DNA of 27,232 nucleotides from a virus: IMG/VR virus record IMGVR_UViG_3300044631_002149, positions 1-27,232 of that record, one strand, 5' to 3'. Positions 2,365 through 24,574 of the stretch are shown piece by piece (positions within the stretch are counted from its first letter, which is position 1; the number at the start of each line of letters is the position of its first letter). The notes under the pieces were generated by a model. That model saw only the letters and a program-made list of their open reading frames with translations, did not search any database and was not told the origin of the DNA. Position numbers and translations under genes: made by a program.

Positions 2365-3705
2365 TCAGTAGACTCTGTGCGTAGTAATCGCCCCTGTCTC
2401 CCCTTTATTCATGTTGAAGCGACCCAGGCATAAATAACCAAAGGCGTCAAACGAGTGGTCTACGCCGAGCTTCTTGTTTGGCATTCGCGTACCTTCAGCG
2501 TAGCCTAAAGTCCTGAAGCTCTTAATCAACTCACGGCAGCGTGGGTTGATCTTGGTATGCACCTCGCCATCAGCTGTACGCAGCGCTGCATTGACCGCCC
2601 GTATCTTGTCAGCAATGTTATATGGGGCCTCGGGGGCGTAGACTGTAATTCCGGCCTTGCGGAGGATCTGATGATCGCTCACACCTACGCCGGAAGTTTG
2701 TTTGCGCTTGCCGGTGGGGTCGGGGCAGGCAATTTTACGTCGATTTTCGCCATAAAGATCATTGAGCACTTCTGCCATGTCCCAAGTCGTCGCACCTTTT
2801 AAGTTCAACTCGTTAAAAACACGCAATTCGACGGCTCGACCCTTGACTCGCACGATATTGGCGCAAATAGCGGTTAATGGGTCGTTGTTAAAGTCCATGC
2901 CGATGTAAAGCGGCAGATTGAGGTCATCTTCAACAGTCGAGTCAAGGTTTAGCATTGAGAAGCACGATGCCACTAGCCCTGTATTCGACAGGATTTTAGC
3001 TTCATATTCGCGCTCAAACACCTCTAGCGCAAGCGTTCTACGTGCTTCCTCAATTTCGGCCAGCGGAATGTTTCCGCCTTGCAATGACGTGTATTCGTAA
3101 AGCCCCCACTGTTCGGGGTCAAGTTGCTCCAGCCCAGGGTCCACATCGTCAGAGCCCTGCAGTTGCAGCACTAGCTCATAAAACCATCCCGCAGTACCCT
3201 CGGGGGATGGCGTGGTCGTGAATAATGCCCAGCCGCCACGGTCGGACAATGCCGGCCTAATAACAGAACGCCAAGTATATTCTGTCTGAAACGCGCACTC
3301 GTCTAGCACAACGCCCGTGAGCGCAGGGCCGCGCAATGCGTCGGGATCTTCAGAGCCCTTAAGGTAAATGCTGGAGCCGTTGATCAGGTCGATTTTTAGG
3401 TTTGACTCATTCTTCTTCCGTATCCAGCGATCCGGTATAATGCGTTTGTATGTATCCCAGGCTATATCTTTGGCCATTCGATACGTTGGCGCGACGTAGT
3501 AATACACGCCAGTGCGTTCAGCCGCGCCACGCAACAGCTCAACGCCCCCAAGCACCGTCTTTCCGCCCCGCCGGCCCGCCAGCACGACGCGAAAGCGGCG
3601 CCGATCCCGAAAAATGCGTCCCTGCACAGGCCGCAGTGACAGCGCATTTCTGCCGGCCAGGAAATCACCGCTCTGGCGTGGCTTCGCTGGGGCGGCAACA
3701 GTCAC
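2365..3705 (-). CDS. terL: Large terminase subunit (ATPase-nuclease)
   Basis: Full-length at 446 aa. Walker A is GRRGGKT (residues 44-50) and Walker B VVLDE (132-136) with catalytic Glu136; a coupling motif FTTTPSPEG follows (162-170). The C-terminal RNase H-like nuclease shows GMDFNNDP (Asp271), CPDPTG (Asp329) and VDHSFDAFGYL (Asp420). The protein cuts and translocates DNA into the procapsid through the portal. Start: GTG at 3705 is the only start downstream of the in-frame TAG at 3745-3747, 26 nt after a TACAGT -10 on this strand; no Shine-Dalgarno is visible. Odd: it is encoded opposite to the portal and all other structural genes, from a divergent promoter pair. No small terminase was recognised nearby; candidates are the zinc-ribbon gene or the 53-aa ORF after portal, neither proven. 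Confidence 0.95.
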   Translation of the reverse strand: MTVAAPAKPRQSGDFLAGRNALSLRPVQGRIFRDRRRFRVVLAGRRGGKTVLGGVELLRGAAERTGVYYYVAPTYRMAKDIAWDTYKRIIPDRWIRKKNESNLKIDLINGSSIYLKGSEDPDALRGPALTGVVLDECAFQTEYTWRSVIRPALSDRGGWALFTTTPSPEGTAGWFYELVLQLQGSDDVDPGLEQLDPEQWGLYEYTSLQGGNIPLAEIEEARRTLALEVFEREYEAKILSNTGLVASCFSMLNLDSTVEDDLNLPLYIGMDFNNDPLTAICANIVRVKGRAVELRVFNELNLKGATTWDMAEVLNDLYGENRRKIACPDPTGKRKQTSGVGVSDHQILRKAGITVYAPEAPYNIADKIRAVNAALRTADGEVHTKINPRCRELIKSFRTLGYAEGTRMPNKKLGVDHSFDAFGYLCLGRFNMNKGETGAITTHRVY

Positions 3706-10590: not shown

Positions 10591-11421
10591 ATGCCCGTTA
10601 CCAACTGCGGTCAAACGACCGTCCTGACCGGCCAGGACGGGATGATCACCATGAAGCCTCCCGGCACGCAAGCCTGCCTGCTGGATTGGACCGACTTCCC
10701 TGTGCCGGTGTCTCCGGCGACCAGCTCGCTGCTCAAGATCCCCGCCAACTCCGACTTCCGCGTGGACGATCCCGTGACCTTCACCGTGAAGGGCACCGCC
10801 GATCTGGACAGCGCCCTGACCGCCAACACGGTCTACTACATCAAGACCCGCCCTTCTGCGACCACCGCGACCATCTCGGCCACCCTGGGCGGCAATGCCA
10901 TCGCCTTCAGCGGCAGCGGCGGCACTGGCTCCGCTGACACCCCTGGCGCCGGCAATCACATCGAGATGAACTTCGCCAGCGCTTTTGCCATGTGCGAAGT
11001 GCCCTCGGTGACGCTGACCATCACCCGCGGCGAGATTGACAACACCGCGCTTCCTTGCAAGCCGGCGGCTGCCGGTGGCGGCCCCAAGGTGGCTCAGTTC
11101 CGGTCTTACCAATCTGGCTTTGCCGATGGCAACGGCACGCTGACACTGCGACTGGTTGAGGACCTGAAGGCTTTTAACAATCGTATCATCCAAGGCACGC
11201 TGTTCAATGATCAGGACGGTGCTGTGCTCAAGGCGTACTTCAACGCTATCGCTGCTTCCGGCGGCGCTGCTGTCGATGACGCTGCCTCTCTTTACAGCGA
11301 GTTTCCTGTCATCCTGCTCGGCTTTGACACTGGCATCAGCCAGGACGAAGGCCCTACTGAGGTGTCCGTGAACTTCCGTATCTCCGGCCAGCCTACGCAC
11401 CTGTTCGGCTTGGCTTTCTGA
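10591..11421 (+). CDS. Major tail (tube) protein
   Basis: 276 aa. It is rich in Thr, Gly, Ala and beta strands and has strongly C-ending codons typical of abundant virion proteins. Landmarks are LTGQDGMITMKPPGTQACLL near the N-terminus, GTADLDSALTANTVYYIKTR in the middle, ITRGEIDNTALPCKPAA, and VNFRISGQPTHLFGLAF at the end. Its place between the terminator candidate and the chaperones identifies it as the tube subunit. The gene at 23519-24574 is a full-length paralogue. Residues ~45-110 (a 'DDPVTFTVKGTADLDSALTA' module) look like an inserted beta domain exposed on the tube. A 26-nt block (10625-10650) is identical to the paralogue (23553-23578). Confidence 0.8.
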   Translation: MPVTNCGQTTVLTGQDGMITMKPPGTQACLLDWTDFPVPVSPATSSLLKIPANSDFRVDDPVTFTVKGTADLDSALTANTVYYIKTRPSATTATISATLGGNAIAFSGSGGTGSADTPGAGNHIEMNFASAFAMCEVPSVTLTITRGEIDNTALPCKPAAAGGGPKVAQFRSYQSGFADGNGTLTLRLVEDLKAFNNRIIQGTLFNDQDGAVLKAYFNAIAASGGAAVDDAASLYSEFPVILLGFDTGISQDEGPTEVSVNFRISGQPTHLFGLAF

Positions 11422-11512: not shown

Positions 11513-11872
11513 ATGGCCAAGAACATCAAGGAACTGCTCAAGCGCACTCGCCAACGCCGCAAGGCTGAGATCACGCTGAGCACGGGCGATGTAATCGAGC
11601 TGTACTTCATGCCTCTCACCGAAGCGGAAGATGAAAAGATCCGCGAAGCAGTCGAAAACGACAAGCGCAACAACGCCTATGGCCTGCGCGTGCTGGTGAA
11701 CAAAGCCGAGTATGAAGACGGCAGCAAGATGTTCACTGTTGGCGACATTGGCATGATGCGCAATGAGTACGCCAAAAGCGACCTGACTGCCATGATGGAA
11801 GCGCTGGTGTTCAACGGGGGCGTACTGGCGAAGGAAGACCCCAAAAGCGATCAAGGAAGCGATCAAGAATGA
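11513..11872 (+). CDS. Tail assembly chaperone, short form (gpG-like)
   Basis: 119 aa between the major tail and tape measure genes, the standard place of the chaperone pair. It starts with basic helix KELLKRTRQRRKAE, has strands ITLSTGDVIELYFMPLTEAE and helices AVENDKRNNAYGLRVLV and NEYAKSDLTAMMEALVFNGG, and ends acidic (AKEDPKSDQGSDQE). In siphoviruses the short form coats the tape measure during assembly. A second frame continues past its stop (see next entry), as in lambda G/GT. ATG 11513 is preceded by CTCTC with no Shine-Dalgarno. Confidence 0.75.
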   Translation: MAKNIKELLKRTRQRRKAEITLSTGDVIELYFMPLTEAEDEKIREAVENDKRNNAYGLRVLVNKAEYEDGSKMFTVGDIGMMRNEYAKSDLTAMMEALVFNGGVLAKEDPKSDQGSDQE

Positions 11873-12047
11873 TCCGCGCTTAATGGTTCGTCTTGCGTTG
11901 TGCAAAGAGCTGGGGATGACACCTTCTCAGCTCAAGCGCGAAGCAACGCAAGACGACATTATTATGTTGGCGGCATATTTCGATATTCTCGCTGACGAAA
12001 TGCCCAAGCCAGGCGCTACGCCTGTCCCGAGCCCCAGAAGGCGCTAG
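11796..12047 (+). CDS. Tail chaperone frameshift extension (gpT-like)
   Basis: A second frame is open from 11796 to TAG 12045-12047 and reads KTPKAIKEAIKNDPRLMVRL, then ELGMTPSQLKREATQDDIIM, then LAAYFDILADEMPKPG. The ending 'DDIIMLAAYFDILADE' is the classic 'E-(L/I)...W/L-A-A-Y' tail of T-type extensions. It lies in the +1 frame relative to the short form, so fusion requires +1 or -2 slippage, not the common -1. Candidate sites in the overlap are the GGGGG run 11816-11820 (codons AAC GGG GGC) for -2 and CCC-A at 11840-11843 for +1. Independent translation from ATG 11883 is an alternative. Confidence 0.7.
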   Translation, partial: WKRWCSTGAYWRRKTPKAIKEAIKNDPRLMVRLALCKELGMTPSQLKREATQDDIIMLAAYFDILADEMPKPGATPVPSPRRR

Positions 12048-12050
12048 TCT
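12045..12050 (+). promoter_or_regulatory. Possible -10 (TAGTCT) for the tape measure gene
   Basis: TAGTCT, which includes the stop codon of the chaperone extension, is 28 nt before the GTG at 12079. It fits the spacing rule but could be coincidence. Confidence 0.25.
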
Positions 12051-12078
12051 GGGGCACTGACACCGGGGCAGGCGGGGC

Positions 12079-15000
12079 GTGGCTGATTATGAAGGTCTGA
12101 TACGGGTTGGCATACAGGGCCTGAATCAGATCAAGGATTTAGAAAAAACTATTAACTCTTCGGTCGATGCCGCGAAGGAGCTTGAAGCGCGACTCGACAG
12201 TATTGAGAAAAAGCAAAGGCGTGCGTCTACAAGGAGTCTGGGCGCGACTAGGGATCTTGGCGCTGCGCTAAACAGGGTTGTCGATACCGACCAAGGCAGA
12301 AACGCAAGAGGGCAAATACTGCCTGGAGCAAGCCCAGCCGAAAGGCGTGCCGCTGCGCAAAACCTGAGACGCGCAGAGCTAAGGCTTAAAGCTGAAGACA
12401 GATCGGCTGCAGCGCTTGAAAGAGCAAGAAGAGTTTATATCGCAACGCTTGGGAAAGTCAACGCAACAACACGTCAAGCAGTGCCCATGCTTGAGTTCGC
12501 CAGTGGCGGGCTGGAAGCAATCTCGGGCAAGATTAGCCGCGAAAGCCGCATCAATTATCTCACCAACCTGTTCCAAGGCAGGCAGCGAGAGTTTGCCCGT
12601 GGCGGTGGCGGCGCAAATCTATCCGCTGACCTTCAGCAGCAGGCACGCAATACTCGCGCTGCATTTGACCTAGCAAGTGCAGGCGGCAGAGAAAACCTGC
12701 AACTGATGCAGCGGCTCGCTACAGAAATGGCGGGCATTGTGCGGCAGCAGAATGAAGTAAGCAGGCTTCGCGCTGGCCGCTCTACAATGTTTGAGGCTGG
12801 GCGGCGCGGGCAGGAAAGGATCACCGACCTGTCCAGAATGGCAGGCGCAGATCCAGGCAAGATTAGACAGCTTCGCTCTCAGGCGACAAGCGTAATCTCT
12901 GCTCAGTACACGGGCGACATTGCCGGCGCAAGGGATCTAGCGCGGCGCATGAATGCGTCGATCATGCGCTATACGCGAGAGCTTGATGCGGCGGCGCGTG
13001 ATTTACAGCAACAGCAGCGGGCGGGCCTCAGAAACCTCAACGTGCGCCAGAGCTGGGCAACCGGCTTGGAACAGCTGGGCGAAACCGCTACTGCTGTCAA
13101 CCAGCGCTTGAAGGTAGCCAGGACAAATCAGCGAGCCTCTTGGACGACCGCACTGGAGCAGCTAGGGGACACTGCTACGACGATTAACCAGAGGCTGAGG
13201 GTAGCCAGGACTAATCAGAGGGCTTCTTGGGCCACCGGCTTAGAGCAGCTGGGAGAAACTGCAACTGTTATCAACCAGCGCCTTAAAGTAGCCAGGACAA
13301 ATCAGCGAGCCTCTTGGACGACCGCACTGGAGCAGCTAGGGGACACTGCTACGACGATTAACCAGCGCCTAAAAGTAGCCAGAACCAATCAGCGGGCCTC
13401 TTGGGCAACCGGCTTAGAGCAGTTGGGCGAAACCGCTACTACCATTAACCAAAGGCTAAAAGTAGCCAGAACCAATCAGAGGGCTTCTTGGGCCACAGGG
13501 TTGGAACAGCTAGGGGAGACTGCAACTGTTATCAATCAGAGGCTGAAAGTAGCGAGAGCAAACCAGCGAGCTTCTTGGACAACCGGCTTAGAGCAGTTGG
13601 GCGAAACTGCGACGGTTATCAATCAGCGCCTAAAGGTAGCTAAAACAAATCAGCGAGCCTCTTGGGCAGCCGCACTAGAGCAGCTCGGGGAAAACGCCAC
13701 TACGATTAGCCAGCGCCTAAAAGTAGCCAGAACCAATCAGCGGGCCTCTTGGGCAACCAGCCTAGAGCAGCTAGGGAAGACTGCTGCCGTAATCAACCAG
13801 AGGCTAAAGGTAGCGAGAACAAACCAACGCGCTTCCTGGGCAACCGCGCTAGAACAGCTGGGGGAAACCGCTACTGCAATCAACCAAAGGTTGGGCGCAC
13901 GCAACCTCAACGTGCGCCAGAGCTGGGCAGCAGCGCTGCAGGACATTGGCGCCGAGCAGCAGATCAGGGCTCGCGCATTGCCTGATCGCAATCTGCTGGC
14001 CCAGCGCGTTGCGGCCAGTGGCCAGGTCGCGCCCACACGGCTTGACGATCTCAGGGACGCTGCCCGCAAGGCTGAAGCAGAGGCAGAGAAGCGAGCGGCG
14101 GGCTCCACCAAGCGCTATGCCGATGCAGTCGAACGCGAGGCGAAGCGGCTGGAGCGGCTTGGCATCGGCCAAGGCCCTGTGCGCGGCCCCGGTGGGGCGG
14201 TCCCGATGGGCGGGCAGTCGAGGGGCGGCTTCAACCAGCTCCCCTTCCCCGCCGGCCCAGGCAATGCCAGGGGCATCGCGCAGTTCCAGGCGATCCAGCG
14301 GCAGCAGCGAGCCGGCGGGGCACAGGGCTTCTTCCAGGGCGACGCACGCAAGGCGATCAGCGAGGGCCTGATTGGTGGCGCGTTCCCGCTGCTGTTCGGC
14401 CAAGGGCTCGGGGCATCCATCGGCGGCGCGGCGGGTGGTGTCAGCGGCGGCCTGATCGGCGGATCGTTCGGCTTCGGCCTGTCGCTGATCGGCACTGCAC
14501 TGGGCAGCGCTGTTGATACCACCACCAACAACCTGAAAGAACTTGCGGCATCGCTCAAGTCGCCCAATGATGCCATCACCGCACTGGAAGCAAGCGGTTT
14601 TCGTGTTGGCGATAGCTTAAAGTTCCAAGTTGAACAGCTGCAATCTGTTGGCCGCGCTTATGACGCGCAGACGCTTGTATTGCAAGAAGTCGAAAGGCGG
14701 CTTGGCGCTGGCAGTGTTCAAGGCTTAAACGCGCTCAATGCAGAGCAAAAGCGGTTGAATGAGTCCTGGGCAGAGCTGACGGGTGCATTGCAAAGTCAGC
14801 TGATTCCGGCGCTGGTCGGATTTACGAATGGAGTCAACGAAGTCATTGCGGCAGTTTCCGGGCTGGGAGAGCTGCCTGTCGTCAAGCAGCTCCTTCAAGC
14901 TCGCGGGGCACTGGCATCTACGCCGCTGGGCCGGGTCGTGGTTCCTTTTGCTCTTGCGGAAGGTCAGTTTCAAGCTGCTCAACAAAGGGGCAGAAGCGTC

Positions 15001-18000
15001 GCCGCCACGGCTCCTGCTCGCGTACCGCTCACGCCCCAAGAAGAGCTGGCCGCCGAATCAACCCGCATCCAAGAATCGCGCAGGGTTGCAGACCAGATCC
15101 GCTCGGCGTACCGCGAAGCATTCCAGCTGCAACGCCAAGCATACGATCTGCAACGCGAAGGCGCGGACATCAACCGCGAGATTGCAGATTATTCTTACAG
15201 AAAACAGCGCGAGATATTTGATCTGCGGCAGCAGGTTGCAGAGCGGGAAATTGAGAACAACCGTGCAGCGGCGCAGAATCGAATCGAGCGCAGTGACCTG
15301 AGCGCACGGCAAACATTTGCGGCGGCGACTGGCTTTGAGCAGCAGCTGCTCACTAATGTCCGCGAAGTGATGCGGACCCGGCAGGAAGGCGAAGCGGACA
15401 TTGAACAATCGCGCAGAAAGCTAGAGCTGGCGATGGCCAAGCTCAACCGCGACGTTGAAGATTACAAGCGCACAAATGCACGCGAAATTGAGGACATTGA
15501 GCGGCGCAAGTTGGCATATACGCGCTCAGTGGAAGATTACAAGATGAACGTTGCAGATTATGTACTGCAACGCGCAAGAGAGGCCGCTGACTTTATGCGG
15601 CAGGCGATGACACTGCCTGAGGTTGGCGGCGGTGGCGGTGCTGTTGGTGGCGGGCTTTCTACTGCAATCGACCGCATTGGTGGAGCGTATCAGTTCCGGG
15701 GCACAGAACTGGCCAGCCGCAGGCAGCCCGGCGATTATCAATCCGATCCGCGAGAAAACTTCTTCTTTGACCGCCGGCCACAGCTGATCGCTGGCGCCAA
15801 AGCCCGAATTGCCACGCTGACGCAATCCGATTTGGCGGCCCTGGCTTTCACGGTGCTTACCGAGGCCGGCCCGACCGACATTGGCAAGATGGATGTAGCA
15901 GCCAATCTGCTTGTCCGCTCTGCCGCATTGGACAATGCGCCGATCAGCGCTGTTGCTAAACAGCCTGGGCAGTATGTCGGCGTCAACAGGTACGGCAGAA
16001 TTGACCTTGAAAGCGAAACGAGAGGCCGTCAGGTATTCGGTTCTCGCTATGACCAAACACTGAATCTGCTGCGCGGCGGCGTTGCTGGTGGAGCAATGCC
16101 TGGCGGCGTTGTTGCCCGCACTGGTGCAACTGGCATCGGCACAGGTGCCCACCTTGACGTGCGCTGGGCTGACGGCAGGCCGATCACGGCAGCAGACGCA
16201 GATCGCTTCATTCGTGTCGCCGGCAAGCTGCCATCGAGCTATGGCGTTACCAGTGGCTACGGCCCGCGCAGGGCGCCCGTCCCAGGGGCATCGACCTTCC
16301 ACCGAGGTGTTGACTTTGCCACCCCGGCAGGCCAGCCAATCACCCTCACCGGAGGCGCCAGGCTCACAGGCGCAATGACTGAAGCGCAGAGCGGCGGCGG
16401 CGGGATCGTTGGCATCATCGAGACCCCGATGGGGCAGATGAAGCTGCTGCATCTTGAGCGCGTCCTTGGCACGCCCCAGGCGACTGCCGCCGCGCAAGTC
16501 TCCAACATTCCCCAGCCGCGCTTCAGCCCGGTCGCGGTCGGCGCTACGCCTTCTGCTGCACCGATTAATGCTGAGCGCATGGCCGTGCTCTCGCGCATGG
16601 TCGGCAGCGAGCAAGAGGCGCAACGGATTCTGGAAGAGCAAAACAAGCTCAGGCAGAAAGGCATTGAGCTTGCTCAGGTCGAGCAAATCCTGCAGGGCAA
16701 TCAAGTGCCGGCACTTGAGCAAGAGTTTGCCGCGCTGCAAAGCAAGCTCAAGGCTCGCCGCGATTCGCTCGGACTGAGCAGCAACGAGCTTGCGTTGGCC
16801 GATCTTGAAGCAGAAAGCAAAGCGCGAATTGCGCGGATTGAAGAAGAGCGAGCCGGTGCGCTTGCAAAAGCCAGCAAGCAATACAAAGGAGCCGATCTTG
16901 CCAAGGCCCAGCAAATGATTAACGAGCAAAGTAAGCTCGGGCTGGGCATTGCCAAGGCGGAAGAGCAGCAGAAGCGCGAAAATCTAGAGCTGGTAAACCA
17001 AATAGCAAACGCGCAAGAAGCGAATGACTTGCTAATCAATGCACGCAAAGAAAAAGAAGTGGCAACGGTTGAAAATGCTGCCTTGCTGCGCGGCGAGCTT
17101 AACGCAAGCGCTGTCGAGCTGGCCAGGCTGTCTGATGGTTACAAAGCCATGAGCGAACAGCAAAAGGCAGCCTATGAGCTTGATGTTGCCAGAACCGAAG
17201 AGCTGCGCAAGCAAAATGAGTTCAGGCAGCAGATCAATCAACTGCAGCAGGAGCGAAGTCTTACTGGCGCTGGGCTACGCGCTGGAATGATCGGTGAACC
17301 TGCACGCAGCTTTGAGCAGGCACTGAATGACGACAGAAGCGTTGAGCAAGCAAATCAGCTCGCGCAGGAGGCCGAACTTCTTGAAGACCAGCAGCTGATC
17401 TGGGACAGCCTTGAAAAGAACATTGTCGATGTATCTAACGCAATTTCGGGCGGGCTCACTAATGGTCTGCTTGATGTAATCAGCGGCGCCCAAAAGATTG
17501 AGGACGTAGGCCGCGAGGTGCTTAATGGCATCGCCCGTACGTTTGCCGACACCGCACAGCAGCAGCTGAGCACGCTGATGCAACGCAAGCTCGCGTCGAT
17601 GCTGGGTGGCCCTGAAGGCCCGCTCACCAAGATGCTCGGGGGCGCGTCCGCTACCGCCGGCCCTGAAGCGCTCAACGGTGCATCTCTGGCCGCAAGCGGC
17701 AACGTATGGGCGCTCAATAATGCGGCGCTTGCGGCAAGCGCCAGCCTGCAATCCTTCGCTGCGCAAGCTGCGGTTTCTAGCGCAACAAGTGGTATCGGTT
17801 CTGCATTCTCTGCAAGCGCTCCTAACATCTTGGGCAGCTTCTTCCCCGGCGGCGCCGGGCTAAGTTTTGGCCCCAGCTCCATGCTTAGCGGTATTGGTTC
17901 TGCATTCTCCAGCGCAGCGCCCAACATCCTGGGCAGCGTGCTCGGCGGCGCCAGTCCGCTGCCCAGCTTCCCGTTTGGCGGTTTCCTGGCCAATGGCGGC

Positions 18001-18375
18001 ACGGCTCAGCGCGGCAAAGGGTACGTCGTGGGTGATGGCGGCGAGCCTGAGGTTTTCTTCCCTGGCGCAACCGGCCAAGTCGTGCCGTTTTCCGATTTGG
18101 AGAACGATGAGGACGAGCCAGAGTTTTCTTTTGCTGGCGCCGCCGGAAAGGCCGTGCCACGCTCTGACATGGAAAAAGCCGCTGCGCTACAGGAAGGTGA
18201 ATCGAGCAACGAGCCCATTGACATTCGCTACACCGTGACAGAACAGCGTGGCGAGCGCTATGTTACCGAGGAACAGCTGCTCAAGAGCAATGCCGCCTTG
18301 GCTAAGCGCACTCAAGCCATGACCTACGCTGGCATGAGAAACAATCAGCAAATCCGCGAGTACGCCGGGCTCTGA
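12079..18375 (+). CDS. Tape measure protein with repeat array and muralytic domains
   Basis: 2098 aa, from a GTG preceded by a G-rich stretch. The order is: helical N-terminus; ten 29-aa repeats (residues ~324-613); Gly-rich hydrophobic segment (~763-812, GGAFPLLFGQGLGASIGGAA); the block LNESWAELTGALQSQLIPAL common in tape measures; long charged coiled coil (~1015-1180); a SleB-like segment (~1250-1300, with TEAGP Glu1262 and 'DVAANLLVRSAALDNAPIS'); an M23 peptidase-like domain (~1392-1470) with SGYGPRR, H1408-x3-D1412 and LLHLE (H1458); a second coiled coil (~1500-1760); and a C-terminus with YVVGDGGEPEVFFPGATGQV. It sets tail length (about 0.15 nm per residue suggests roughly 300 nm, less for folded domains) and probably enters the envelope with wall-cutting activity at infection. 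Confidence 0.9.
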   Translation: MADYEGLIRVGIQGLNQIKDLEKTINSSVDAAKELEARLDSIEKKQRRASTRSLGATRDLGAALNRVVDTDQGRNARGQILPGASPAERRAAAQNLRRAELRLKAEDRSAAALERARRVYIATLGKVNATTRQAVPMLEFASGGLEAISGKISRESRINYLTNLFQGRQREFARGGGGANLSADLQQQARNTRAAFDLASAGGRENLQLMQRLATEMAGIVRQQNEVSRLRAGRSTMFEAGRRGQERITDLSRMAGADPGKIRQLRSQATSVISAQYTGDIAGARDLARRMNASIMRYTRELDAAARDLQQQQRAGLRNLNVRQSWATGLEQLGETATAVNQRLKVARTNQRASWTTALEQLGDTATTINQRLRVARTNQRASWATGLEQLGETATVINQRLKVARTNQRASWTTALEQLGDTATTINQRLKVARTNQRASWATGLEQLGETATTINQRLKVARTNQRASWATGLEQLGETATVINQRLKVARANQRASWTTGLEQLGETATVINQRLKVAKTNQRASWAAALEQLGENATTISQRLKVARTNQRASWATSLEQLGKTAAVINQRLKVARTNQRASWATALEQLGETATAINQRLGARNLNVRQSWAAALQDIGAEQQIRARALPDRNLLAQRVAASGQVAPTRLDDLRDAARKAEAEAEKRAAGSTKRYADAVEREAKRLERLGIGQGPVRGPGGAVPMGGQSRGGFNQLPFPAGPGNARGIAQFQAIQRQQRAGGAQGFFQGDARKAISEGLIGGAFPLLFGQGLGASIGGAAGGVSGGLIGGSFGFGLSLIGTALGSAVDTTTNNLKELAASLKSPNDAITALEASGFRVGDSLKFQVEQLQSVGRAYDAQTLVLQEVERRLGAGSVQGLNALNAEQKRLNESWAELTGALQSQLIPALVGFTNGVNEVIAAVSGLGELPVVKQLLQARGALASTPLGRVVVPFALAEGQFQAAQQRGRSVAATAPARVPLTPQEELAAESTRIQESRRVADQIRSAYREAFQLQRQAYDLQREGADINREIADYSYRKQREIFDLRQQVAEREIENNRAAAQNRIERSDLSARQTFAAATGFEQQLLTNVREVMRTRQEGEADIEQSRRKLELAMAKLNRDVEDYKRTNAREIEDIERRKLAYTRSVEDYKMNVADYVLQRAREAADFMRQAMTLPEVGGGGGAVGGGLSTAIDRIGGAYQFRGTELASRRQPGDYQSDPRENFFFDRRPQLIAGAKARIATLTQSDLAALAFTVLTEAGPTDIGKMDVAANLLVRSAALDNAPISAVAKQPGQYVGVNRYGRIDLESETRGRQVFGSRYDQTLNLLRGGVAGGAMPGGVVARTGATGIGTGAHLDVRWADGRPITAADADRFIRVAGKLPSSYGVTSGYGPRRAPVPGASTFHRGVDFATPAGQPITLTGGARLTGAMTEAQSGGGGIVGIIETPMGQMKLLHLERVLGTPQATAAAQVSNIPQPRFSPVAVGATPSAAPINAERMAVLSRMVGSEQEAQRILEEQNKLRQKGIELAQVEQILQGNQVPALEQEFAALQSKLKARRDSLGLSSNELALADLEAESKARIARIEEERAGALAKASKQYKGADLAKAQQMINEQSKLGLGIAKAEEQQKRENLELVNQIANAQEANDLLINARKEKEVATVENAALLRGELNASAVELARLSDGYKAMSEQQKAAYELDVARTEELRKQNEFRQQINQLQQERSLTGAGLRAGMIGEPARSFEQALNDDRSVEQANQLAQEAELLEDQQLIWDSLEKNIVDVSNAISGGLTNGLLDVISGAQKIEDVGREVLNGIARTFADTAQQQLSTLMQRKLASMLGGPEGPLTKMLGGASATAGPEALNGASLAASGNVWALNNAALAASASLQSFAAQAAVSSATSGIGSAFSASAPNILGSFFPGGAGLSFGPSSMLSGIGSAFSSAAPNILGSVLGGASPLPSFPFGGFLANGGTAQRGKGYVVGDGGEPEVFFPGATGQVVPFSDLENDEDEPEFSFAGAAGKAVPRSDMEKAAALQEGESSNEPIDIRYTVTEQRGERYVTEEQLLKSNAALAKRTQAMTYAGMRNNQQIREYAGL
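13048..13917 (+). repeat. Ten tandem 87-bp (29-aa) repeats in the tape measure gene
   Basis: The TGG codon recurs at exactly 87-bp steps (13054, 13141, 13228 ... 13837), with an eleventh start at 13924. The unit consensus is QRASWATGLEQLGETAT followed by VINQRLKVARTN. Units 2 and 4 share a 78-bp identical block (13114-13191 and 13288-13365), and 13362-13410 equals 13710-13758, four units away. A 27-bp sequence (13033-13059) recurs exactly after the array (13903-13929), so the array grew inside one ancestral copy. Since 29 residues are close to eight helical turns, all Trp fall on one face. Confidence 0.95.
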
Positions 18376-23518: not shown

Positions 23519-24574
23519 ATGCCAGTTTCCGGCAAGCGTAAAAGAACGGTTTTGACCGGCCAGGACGGGATGATCACCCTCAGGCCGCCTGGGACGCTGA
23601 TATGTTTGCGCGACTACAGCGATTTCATGGCTGGTGGCATGATCAACGTGCCAGCAAGCTGTGACTTGCGCATCAATGATCCAGTAGTTTTTACAAAAAA
23701 GGGATCTGCGCAGCTTGATGATGCAGTCGAAGACGGCGTTATTTATTACATTGCCGCCCGCCCTACGCCTAGCACAGCGCAAATATCTGATTCCGCAGGA
23801 GGTGCTCCCATTACCTTTGCCGGCAATGGCGGGTCGGCAGGCGCTGATACGCCAGGAGATGGGAATTACATTGAAATGGGCTTTGCGCTTGACCAAGCGC
23901 TATGCGAGGTGGCATCGGTCACGCTATCAATCAGACGCGGAGAGGTTGATAAAACAGCGATCCCCTGTCAGCCGGCGTCAGGTGCAGGCGGCCCAAAAAT
24001 GGCGCTCTTCCGCTCATACCAAGCCGGATACGCTGACGGCAAAGGGGTTTTAACTATTCGCCTGACGGAAGACCTGGAGGCATTTAATGTTCGGTTAGTG
24101 CAAGGCGTGCTGTTCAGCAATCAAAGCGGAGCAATCTTAAAAGCATACTTCAATGCGGTCGCTGCCACGGGAGCGCTTTATGCAGACGACTCGCAATCGC
24201 TTTACAGCGAGCTGCCGATTGTATTGCTTGGCTTTAACACAAGAATATCACCAGAGAACGGCCCTGCTGAGCTGGCGATTGATTTTCGTGTTTCCGGCCA
24301 GCCGCTCAACGCATTTGGGTCTGGCGCTCTGACGCCGCCCCCTGCGCCGGTCTTGGCCTTCTGCCCACTGCTAACGGTCGTCGGCACTGGCGCAACGCTG
24401 TTCGTGGCCGTCGCCCCATCCCCCGCCGGCCCAGTGATCGAGCTGGGCGCGACGGGCACCCTGGAGGTTGCCGGCACTGGCGCAACGCTGTTCGTGGCCG
24501 TCGTGAACCTTGATGGCGGCCCAGTGATCGAGCTGGGCGCGACGGGCACCCTGGAGGTTGCAGCAGCGCTGTAG
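23519..24574 (+). CDS. Second major-tail-like protein with C-terminal 30-aa repeats
   Basis: 351 aa. Residues ~1-270 are a full-length paralogue of the tube protein at 10591: both have LTGQDGMIT...PPGT, a 'INDPVVFTKKGSAQLDDAVE' module, 'RRGEVDKTAIPCQPASGAGG' and end in 'FRVSGQPLNAFG'. After a Pro-rich link (ALTPPPAPVLAFCPLL) come two copies of GTGATLFVAV...GPVIELGATGTLEVA. Codon use is much less C-biased than in the tube gene, so it is probably a low-copy protein: a tip-proximal tube ring, a decorated tube subunit, or an alternative subunit. The ATG at 23519 is the first after the promoter candidate; an 8-codon frame at 23464 is not considered a gene. Confidence 0.75.
   Translation: MPVSGKRKRTVLTGQDGMITLRPPGTLICLRDYSDFMAGGMINVPASCDLRINDPVVFTKKGSAQLDDAVEDGVIYYIAARPTPSTAQISDSAGGAPITFAGNGGSAGADTPGDGNYIEMGFALDQALCEVASVTLSIRRGEVDKTAIPCQPASGAGGPKMALFRSYQAGYADGKGVLTIRLTEDLEAFNVRLVQGVLFSNQSGAILKAYFNAVAATGALYADDSQSLYSELPIVLLGFNTRISPENGPAELAIDFRVSGQPLNAFGSGALTPPPAPVLAFCPLLTVVGTGATLFVAVAPSPAGPVIELGATGTLEVAGTGATLFVAVVNLDGGPVIELGATGTLEVAAAL
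24382..24561 (+). repeat. Two tandem 90-bp repeats at the 3' end of the second tail-protein gene
   Basis: 24382-24471 and 24472-24561 are identical except for ~14 positions in the middle (24414-24427 versus 24504-24517), where the encoded residues change from APSPA to VNLDG. Third positions are conserved too, so the copies are recent or kept alike by recombination. Confidence 0.9.

Follow-up and report, generated by a model that had tools for sequence, protein, structure and literature searches.

How a tape measure protein counts the rings of a phage tail is the structural question at stake in the locus described here, where repeats of one exact length lie in tandem within a tape measure gene. 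The DNA analysed (the window) is a viral contig of 27,232 bp, in which the gene order is major tail protein, tail assembly chaperone and then tape measure.

10591-11421 (+): major tail (tube) protein, homologous to its S-2L counterpart (E-value 1e-56)
11513-11872 (+): tail assembly chaperone of 119 aa, a homologue of the S-2L chaperone (E-value 5e-10), matching phrog_344 and phrog_20784
12079-18375 (+): tape measure protein ORF, 2098 aa with a GTG start, matching phrog_20119 (E-value 2e-9) and phrog_1538 (E-value 3e-4)

An earlier sequence-only reading took the long ORF for a tape measure gene, and this identification holds, since it encodes a long protein placed directly after the S-2L-like major tail protein and chaperone genes and matches annotated tape measure families among the PHROG profiles (phrog_20119 through its C-terminal part). 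Tape measure and tail proteins of Acinetobacter and Moraxella match residues 1358-1477 only, a match to M23 peptidases in the second half of the protein is weak and lies below Pfam's cut-off, and a search for relatives in cellular genomes gave no match. Among cultured phages the portal and capsid proteins are closest to those of cyanosiphoviruses, S-2L first and then KBS-S-2A and S-H1; the portal is also near those of MED4 phages, and the one exception for the capsid is a single-cell marine virus record. The morphogenesis module is of the S-2L kind, with homologous portal, capsid, tail tube and chaperone, and the host is likely to be cyanobacterial.

A second frame is open in the tail assembly chaperone gene (11840-12064, +), shifted +1 (or -2); it starts at the motif (C/T)CC AAA AGC (11840-11848) and continues AIKEAIKNDPRLMVRLALCKELGMTPSQL..., and both this frame relation and CCAAAAGC are kept in 16 of the 16 relatives where both parts were found. 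The arrangement resembles programmed frameshifting of the +1/-2 type, unlike the -1 type usually described for chaperones of this sort. The terminase large subunit gene (2365-3705, -) lies on the strand opposite to the portal and morphogenesis genes, and two tandem 90 bp copies with 87 % matches (24382-24561), mostly within the ORF at 23519-24574, are also present in the related contig L008.

Within the tape measure ORF the array is flanked by two conserved blocks, one upstream and one that is rich in glycine (GGAFPLLFGQG), and it is made up as follows.

13033-13059 (+): 5' copy of the 27 bp bracket (NLNVRQSWA), present as a single copy in relatives L003 (8484-8510) and L005
13054-13140 (+): unit 1 (WATGLEQLGETATAVNQRLKVARTNQRAS)
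13141-13227 (+): unit 2
13228-13314 (+): unit 3
13315-13401 (+): unit 4
13402-13488 (+): unit 5
13489-13575 (+): unit 6
13576-13662 (+): unit 7
13663-13749 (+): unit 8
13750-13836 (+): unit 9
13837-13923 (+): unit 10, its last 21 nt being bracket sequence
13903-13929 (+): 3' copy of the 27 bp bracket
13114-13191 (+): 78 bp tract identical to 13288-13365, offset by 174 bp or two units
13362-13410 (+): 49 bp tract identical to 13710-13758, offset by 348 bp or four units
13924-14010 (+): resident single unit (WAAALQDIGAEQQIRARALPD...), the sole unit in L003 and L005

Ten units of 87 bp (29 aa) run back to back from 13054 to 13923 without insertions or deletions, and TGG (Trp) is the first codon of every unit. 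One more Trp codon, at 13924, starts the flanking resident sequence, which gives ten complete units but eleven Trp residues in register. The exact 87 bp period and the Trp every 29 residues had been read correctly from the sequence, as had the longest identical runs, of 78, 49 and 27 bp at offsets of 174, 348 and 870; only the extent of the array needs the small correction that the end of the tenth unit already belongs to the bracket. The two copies of the bracket, AACCTCAACGTGCGCCAGAGCTGGGCA, are spaced by exactly 870 bp (10 x 87), and the internal linkers between units (ARTNQRAS) are unlike it (NLNVRQS). TRF scores the array at 705 for a period of 87, 926 for 174 and 979 for 261. A super-repeat of 174 bp (a dimer structure) was considered but is not claimed, as mean identity by unit offset shows no significant peak at two or four units when compared with shuffled unit orders. 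Pfam families reported on the array were discarded, being summed weak matches to unrelated families with almost no single passing stretch, and a PDB sequence search with the array gave no match at E-values up to 1.

The ten-unit array is common to three contigs, the window, L002 (99.99 % identical) and L004, and single-sequence and profile queries for this unit family in other viral contigs returned only L002 and L004. L004 is identical to the window over 12079-14408, array included, and from 15001 on is only 94 % identical. In L003 and L005 the bracket occurs once and the array is absent, so that these relatives have ten units fewer; the DNA missing from L003 amounts to exactly 870 bp (1 Trp unit versus 11 in the window), and the flanks are 96 % (downstream) and 91 % (upstream) identical to the window in L003, and 89 and 91 % in L005. 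Tandem repeats can be mis-assembled in metagenomes, and an array of this kind could in principle be an artefact, but we hold this to be extremely improbable: the longest identical tract, at 78 bp, is shorter than the usual read length, and the same ten units occur in three separately assembled contigs, one of them a genotype that is 6 % divergent downstream.

Throughout the tape measure family the two conserved blocks, the upstream one and GGAFPLLFGQG, enclose a variable zone. One 29-residue Trp unit is found in L003, L005, L015, L041, L049, L052 and L053, two in L016 and L017, three in L057, four in L031, five in L112 and eight in L067. Close pairs differ by whole units: L031 (four units) and L053 (one) are 261 bp apart with flanks 92-95 % identical, and L057 (three) and L016/L017 (two) are 87 bp apart with flanks about 92-97 % identical. 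L120 (four) and L126 (three) are shifted by exactly 87 bp amid 5276 bp that are 100 % and 3088 bp that are 99.4 % identical, although this difference could reflect assembly collapse, the DNA-identical units there exceeding a short read, a problem from which the arrays of the window, L057 and L016/L017 are free. L125 and L130, whose contigs start within the array, were left out of the gain and loss evidence. The sequence comparisons thus indicate that gains and losses are of whole 87 bp units; unit number had been expected to vary in this way, and an invariant number, named beforehand as grounds for giving up the idea, is not what the relatives have.

The spacing is equally regular. In a first set of Trp-motif gaps 29 of 38 are of 29 residues and five are of 25, all five from L087, and in a second set, which includes L113 (the same contig as L112) and a few near-duplicate loci, the figure is 30 of 30; without L113 the combined count is 55 of 64 gaps of exactly 29 residues. 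The 29-residue spacing persists in arrays that share little sequence, and across very different arrays nothing is better conserved than the Trp and the SW motif. The only clear exception, L087, has eight 25-residue units (seven turns) with the motif SW..FFE at residues 590-790 of its tape measure protein. L006, L007, L035 and L063 have, at the same place and instead of Trp units, an unrelated 33-residue GSPAY repeat (of the GGPRESIKGRKDLPGSPAYYEEQRKQLQRAVRA type), which contains proline and glycine and reaches about eight or more copies. The N-terminus of the tape measure protein is mosaic, window positions 12079-12540 resembling L006 and the sequence from about residue 155 onward resembling L003. 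The variable zone is on these observations a hot spot in which different repeat modules replace one another within one gene.

Mean pairwise identity among window units 0-8 is 77 % in DNA and 86 % in protein, and pooled over these units dS is 1.57, dN 0.09 and dN/dS 0.057. These values agree with the claim that the array is old, and with dS near saturation at such a dN the protein sequence of each unit has evidently been maintained for a long time, pointing to strong purifying selection at the protein level; in the array of L067 dN/dS is 0.20. An excess of codon divergence beyond chance, of a recombination-avoiding kind, was ruled out, because random synonymous choice would leave the units less similar than they are. 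To assess the identical tracts, the aligned units were permuted by column and by codon (2000 trials). The 78 bp run was reached in 0/2000 permutations, the longest permuted run being 60-62 bp, and about 0.3 % of them (p about 0.003) reached the 49 bp run at offset 348, so that on statistical grounds the units have exchanged sequence in the past. Exchange had, however, been called active, and for the window lineage this part of the claim does not stand: two further contigs have zero DNA differences over ten units, and only two tracts stand out. Given units of such age (dS about 1.6) whose protein sequence is nevertheless conserved (dN/dS 0.06), exchange in this lineage is better described as episodic, and the array appears to be mostly stable now, although at least two exchange tracts of later date have left their mark. 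Neighbouring window units resemble each other a little less than units paired at random (P about 0.03-0.045). Elsewhere in the family, four fresh units of L112 share 98-100 % DNA identity, and L112 and L120 have recent DNA-identical expansions; exchange and amplification are, on this evidence, real processes across the family.

The same figures bear on how the window came by its array. Divergence among the units (dS 1.57) is far greater than that between the flanks of the window and of L003 (dS 0.14-0.27), and the array therefore predates the split from L003; it follows either that L003 and L005 have lost it or that an ancestor of the window received it by recombination. In the second case a long array from another phage would have recombined into an L003-like gene at NLNVRQSWA, duplicating the 27 bp bracket, and to this we would give an even chance. 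Besides the disparity in dS, the mosaic N-termini and the difference between bracket and internal linkers speak for import, as do the brackets themselves, which are identical where comparable identity inside the array is found in 2 % of 27 bp windows and 7 % of linker columns; this mildly favours a recent event at the array edges. However, conversion confined to the brackets would leave the same picture, a search of IMG/VR turned up no donor array, and loss from both L003 and L005 by recombination between brackets is the equally possible mirror alternative.

AlphaFold2 models of single chains, of moderate confidence, predict the window array as a nearly unbroken long helix (helices at 2-210 and 215-337, mean pLDDT 68) and the barely similar 29-residue array of L067 as one helix (29-259, pLDDT 61); for the window protein the prediction covers the array. 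At 29/8 residues per turn W1, L5, L8, A12, I15, L19 and A22 of the window unit share one face, and the amphipathic Fourier signal at this periodicity is significant in L067 (p 0.007) and not in the window (p 0.13), L031 or L057. By arithmetic at 1.5 Å per residue, 29 residues make eight turns and 43.5 Å, and 25 residues 37.5 Å.

As to what the array may do, we consider it very probable that it serves a cyanosiphovirus-like tape measure as a helical ruler module that grows and shrinks by whole units, each worth about 4 nm of tail. Each unit would form eight helix turns inside the tail lumen, on a tape coated by the tail chaperone during assembly that sets the number of stacked tube-protein rings, and one unit more or less would change the tail by about 29 x 1.5 Å, or 4.4 nm, close to a single ring; compared with the empty-site relative L003, about 43 nm of tail would come from the ten units. 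Units would spread through tandem duplication and unequal recombination, with insertions or deletions of whole helical turns tolerated and other lengths selected out, presumably because these break the helical register. The step of 4 nm per unit is soundly inferred by analogy with published tape-measure mutants. Tails have been shown to vary with the length of the tape: in phage phiCbK a protein of 1,964 aa predicts a tail of 295 nm, and 300 nm was measured (PMC3556154); in TP901-1, which has 11/18-residue repeats, tails shorten with the size of the deletion (from 118 to 65 nm for 347 aa), phages lacking the 29 residues of repeats 1-2 are viable, and with some intermediate deletions only heads are formed (Mahony et al. 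2016, PMC5099701). Viruses of this family thus appear, from their sequences, to change tail length in fixed steps.

Alanines in place of one 11-residue repeat of TP901-1 have little effect (PMC5099701), so one repeat may do without its particular side chains, which counts against the ruler reading. The units could be a neutral or nearly neutral repeat, a helical spacer grown by slippage and unequal crossing-over whose exact residues are unimportant and which tail length simply follows. The existence of the empty-site lineages L003 and L005 and the expansions in L112 and L120 suit this explanation, and dN/dS is not low in young arrays (L031 0.75, L057 0.35). We nevertheless think it quite improbable, given the long-kept protein sequence of the window units and a spacing that stays at 29 across arrays with little common sequence.

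Selection on the units might instead mean that each serves mainly to dock the tail assembly chaperone, or a tube ring, with the Trp as anchor and tail length following the number of sites loaded. This is compatible with the ruler model but makes the side chains the point. It accords with the conservation of the Trp and SW motif, with the purifying selection and with the position of the chaperone gene directly upstream, and W/F residues have been cited as anchors for small auxiliary proteins (Belcaid et al., PMC3271669); set against the tolerance of alanines in TP901-1, these points leave it a serious possibility to which we assign somewhat less than even weight.

A stricter form of the ruler model makes the 29-residue unit a true graduation, its 43.5 Å matched to one tube ring. 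The ring rise in siphophage tails is 38-43 Å (PMC9022992). Such a match is in our view rather unlikely, but if it were true each unit would bind or time exactly one ring, natural populations would vary tail length ring by ring, and the constancy of the gap at 29 (or 25) despite very different array sequences would be accounted for. The family provides natural phage pairs 1, 3 or 10 exact units apart in closely related backgrounds, and the idea of one unit to one ring is therefore directly testable through ring counts.

Among known systems, cyanosiphovirus S-2L (MW334946) is alike in its homologous portal, capsid, major tail protein and tail chaperone and in having the chaperone followed by the tape measure; unlike that of the window, its tape measure is 857 aa long and has neither the GGAFPLLFGQG block nor Trp units. 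The IMG/VR contigs L003, L005, L031, L053, L057, L067, L112, L120 and others share the GGAFPLLFGQG block, SW motif and 29-residue gaps with the window, and differ from it in having one to eight units of other sequences. Aromatic tape measure repeats with spacings of 11, 18 or 11-11-18, and their history of duplication and loss, are already known (PMC3271669). As in TP901-1, p2 and Clostridium and Bacillus prophages (PMC3271669, PMC5099701), the repeats of the window are in-frame, Trp-marked and variable in number, and they share with the 11/18 repeats their place in the tape measure gene, the duplication and loss of whole units, the variation of unit number in whole units between relatives and the integral number of helical turns. 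In the window there is only one period, fixed at 29, and a lone Trp in each unit, whereas those systems have 11 or 11-11-18 (40); W or F residues spaced at 11 or 18 were not found in the window array, there being only one aromatic residue per 29. The window is further set apart by units 86 % identical in protein, by empty-site relatives at high DNA identity and by its different phage group. The sequence-only reading had called a 29-residue period less usual, which is right for the literature, as no description of a 29-residue tape measure repeat was found in the open-licence literature searched; on the other hand 29 is 11 + 18 and fits the published grammar, and it is the rule in this family. 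The window unit has Ala at +11 and Leu at +18, the same arithmetic of turns in a different pattern. Within the searchable literature, then, the general principle is known, and what is new is the 29-residue unit length together with clear natural variation unit by unit.
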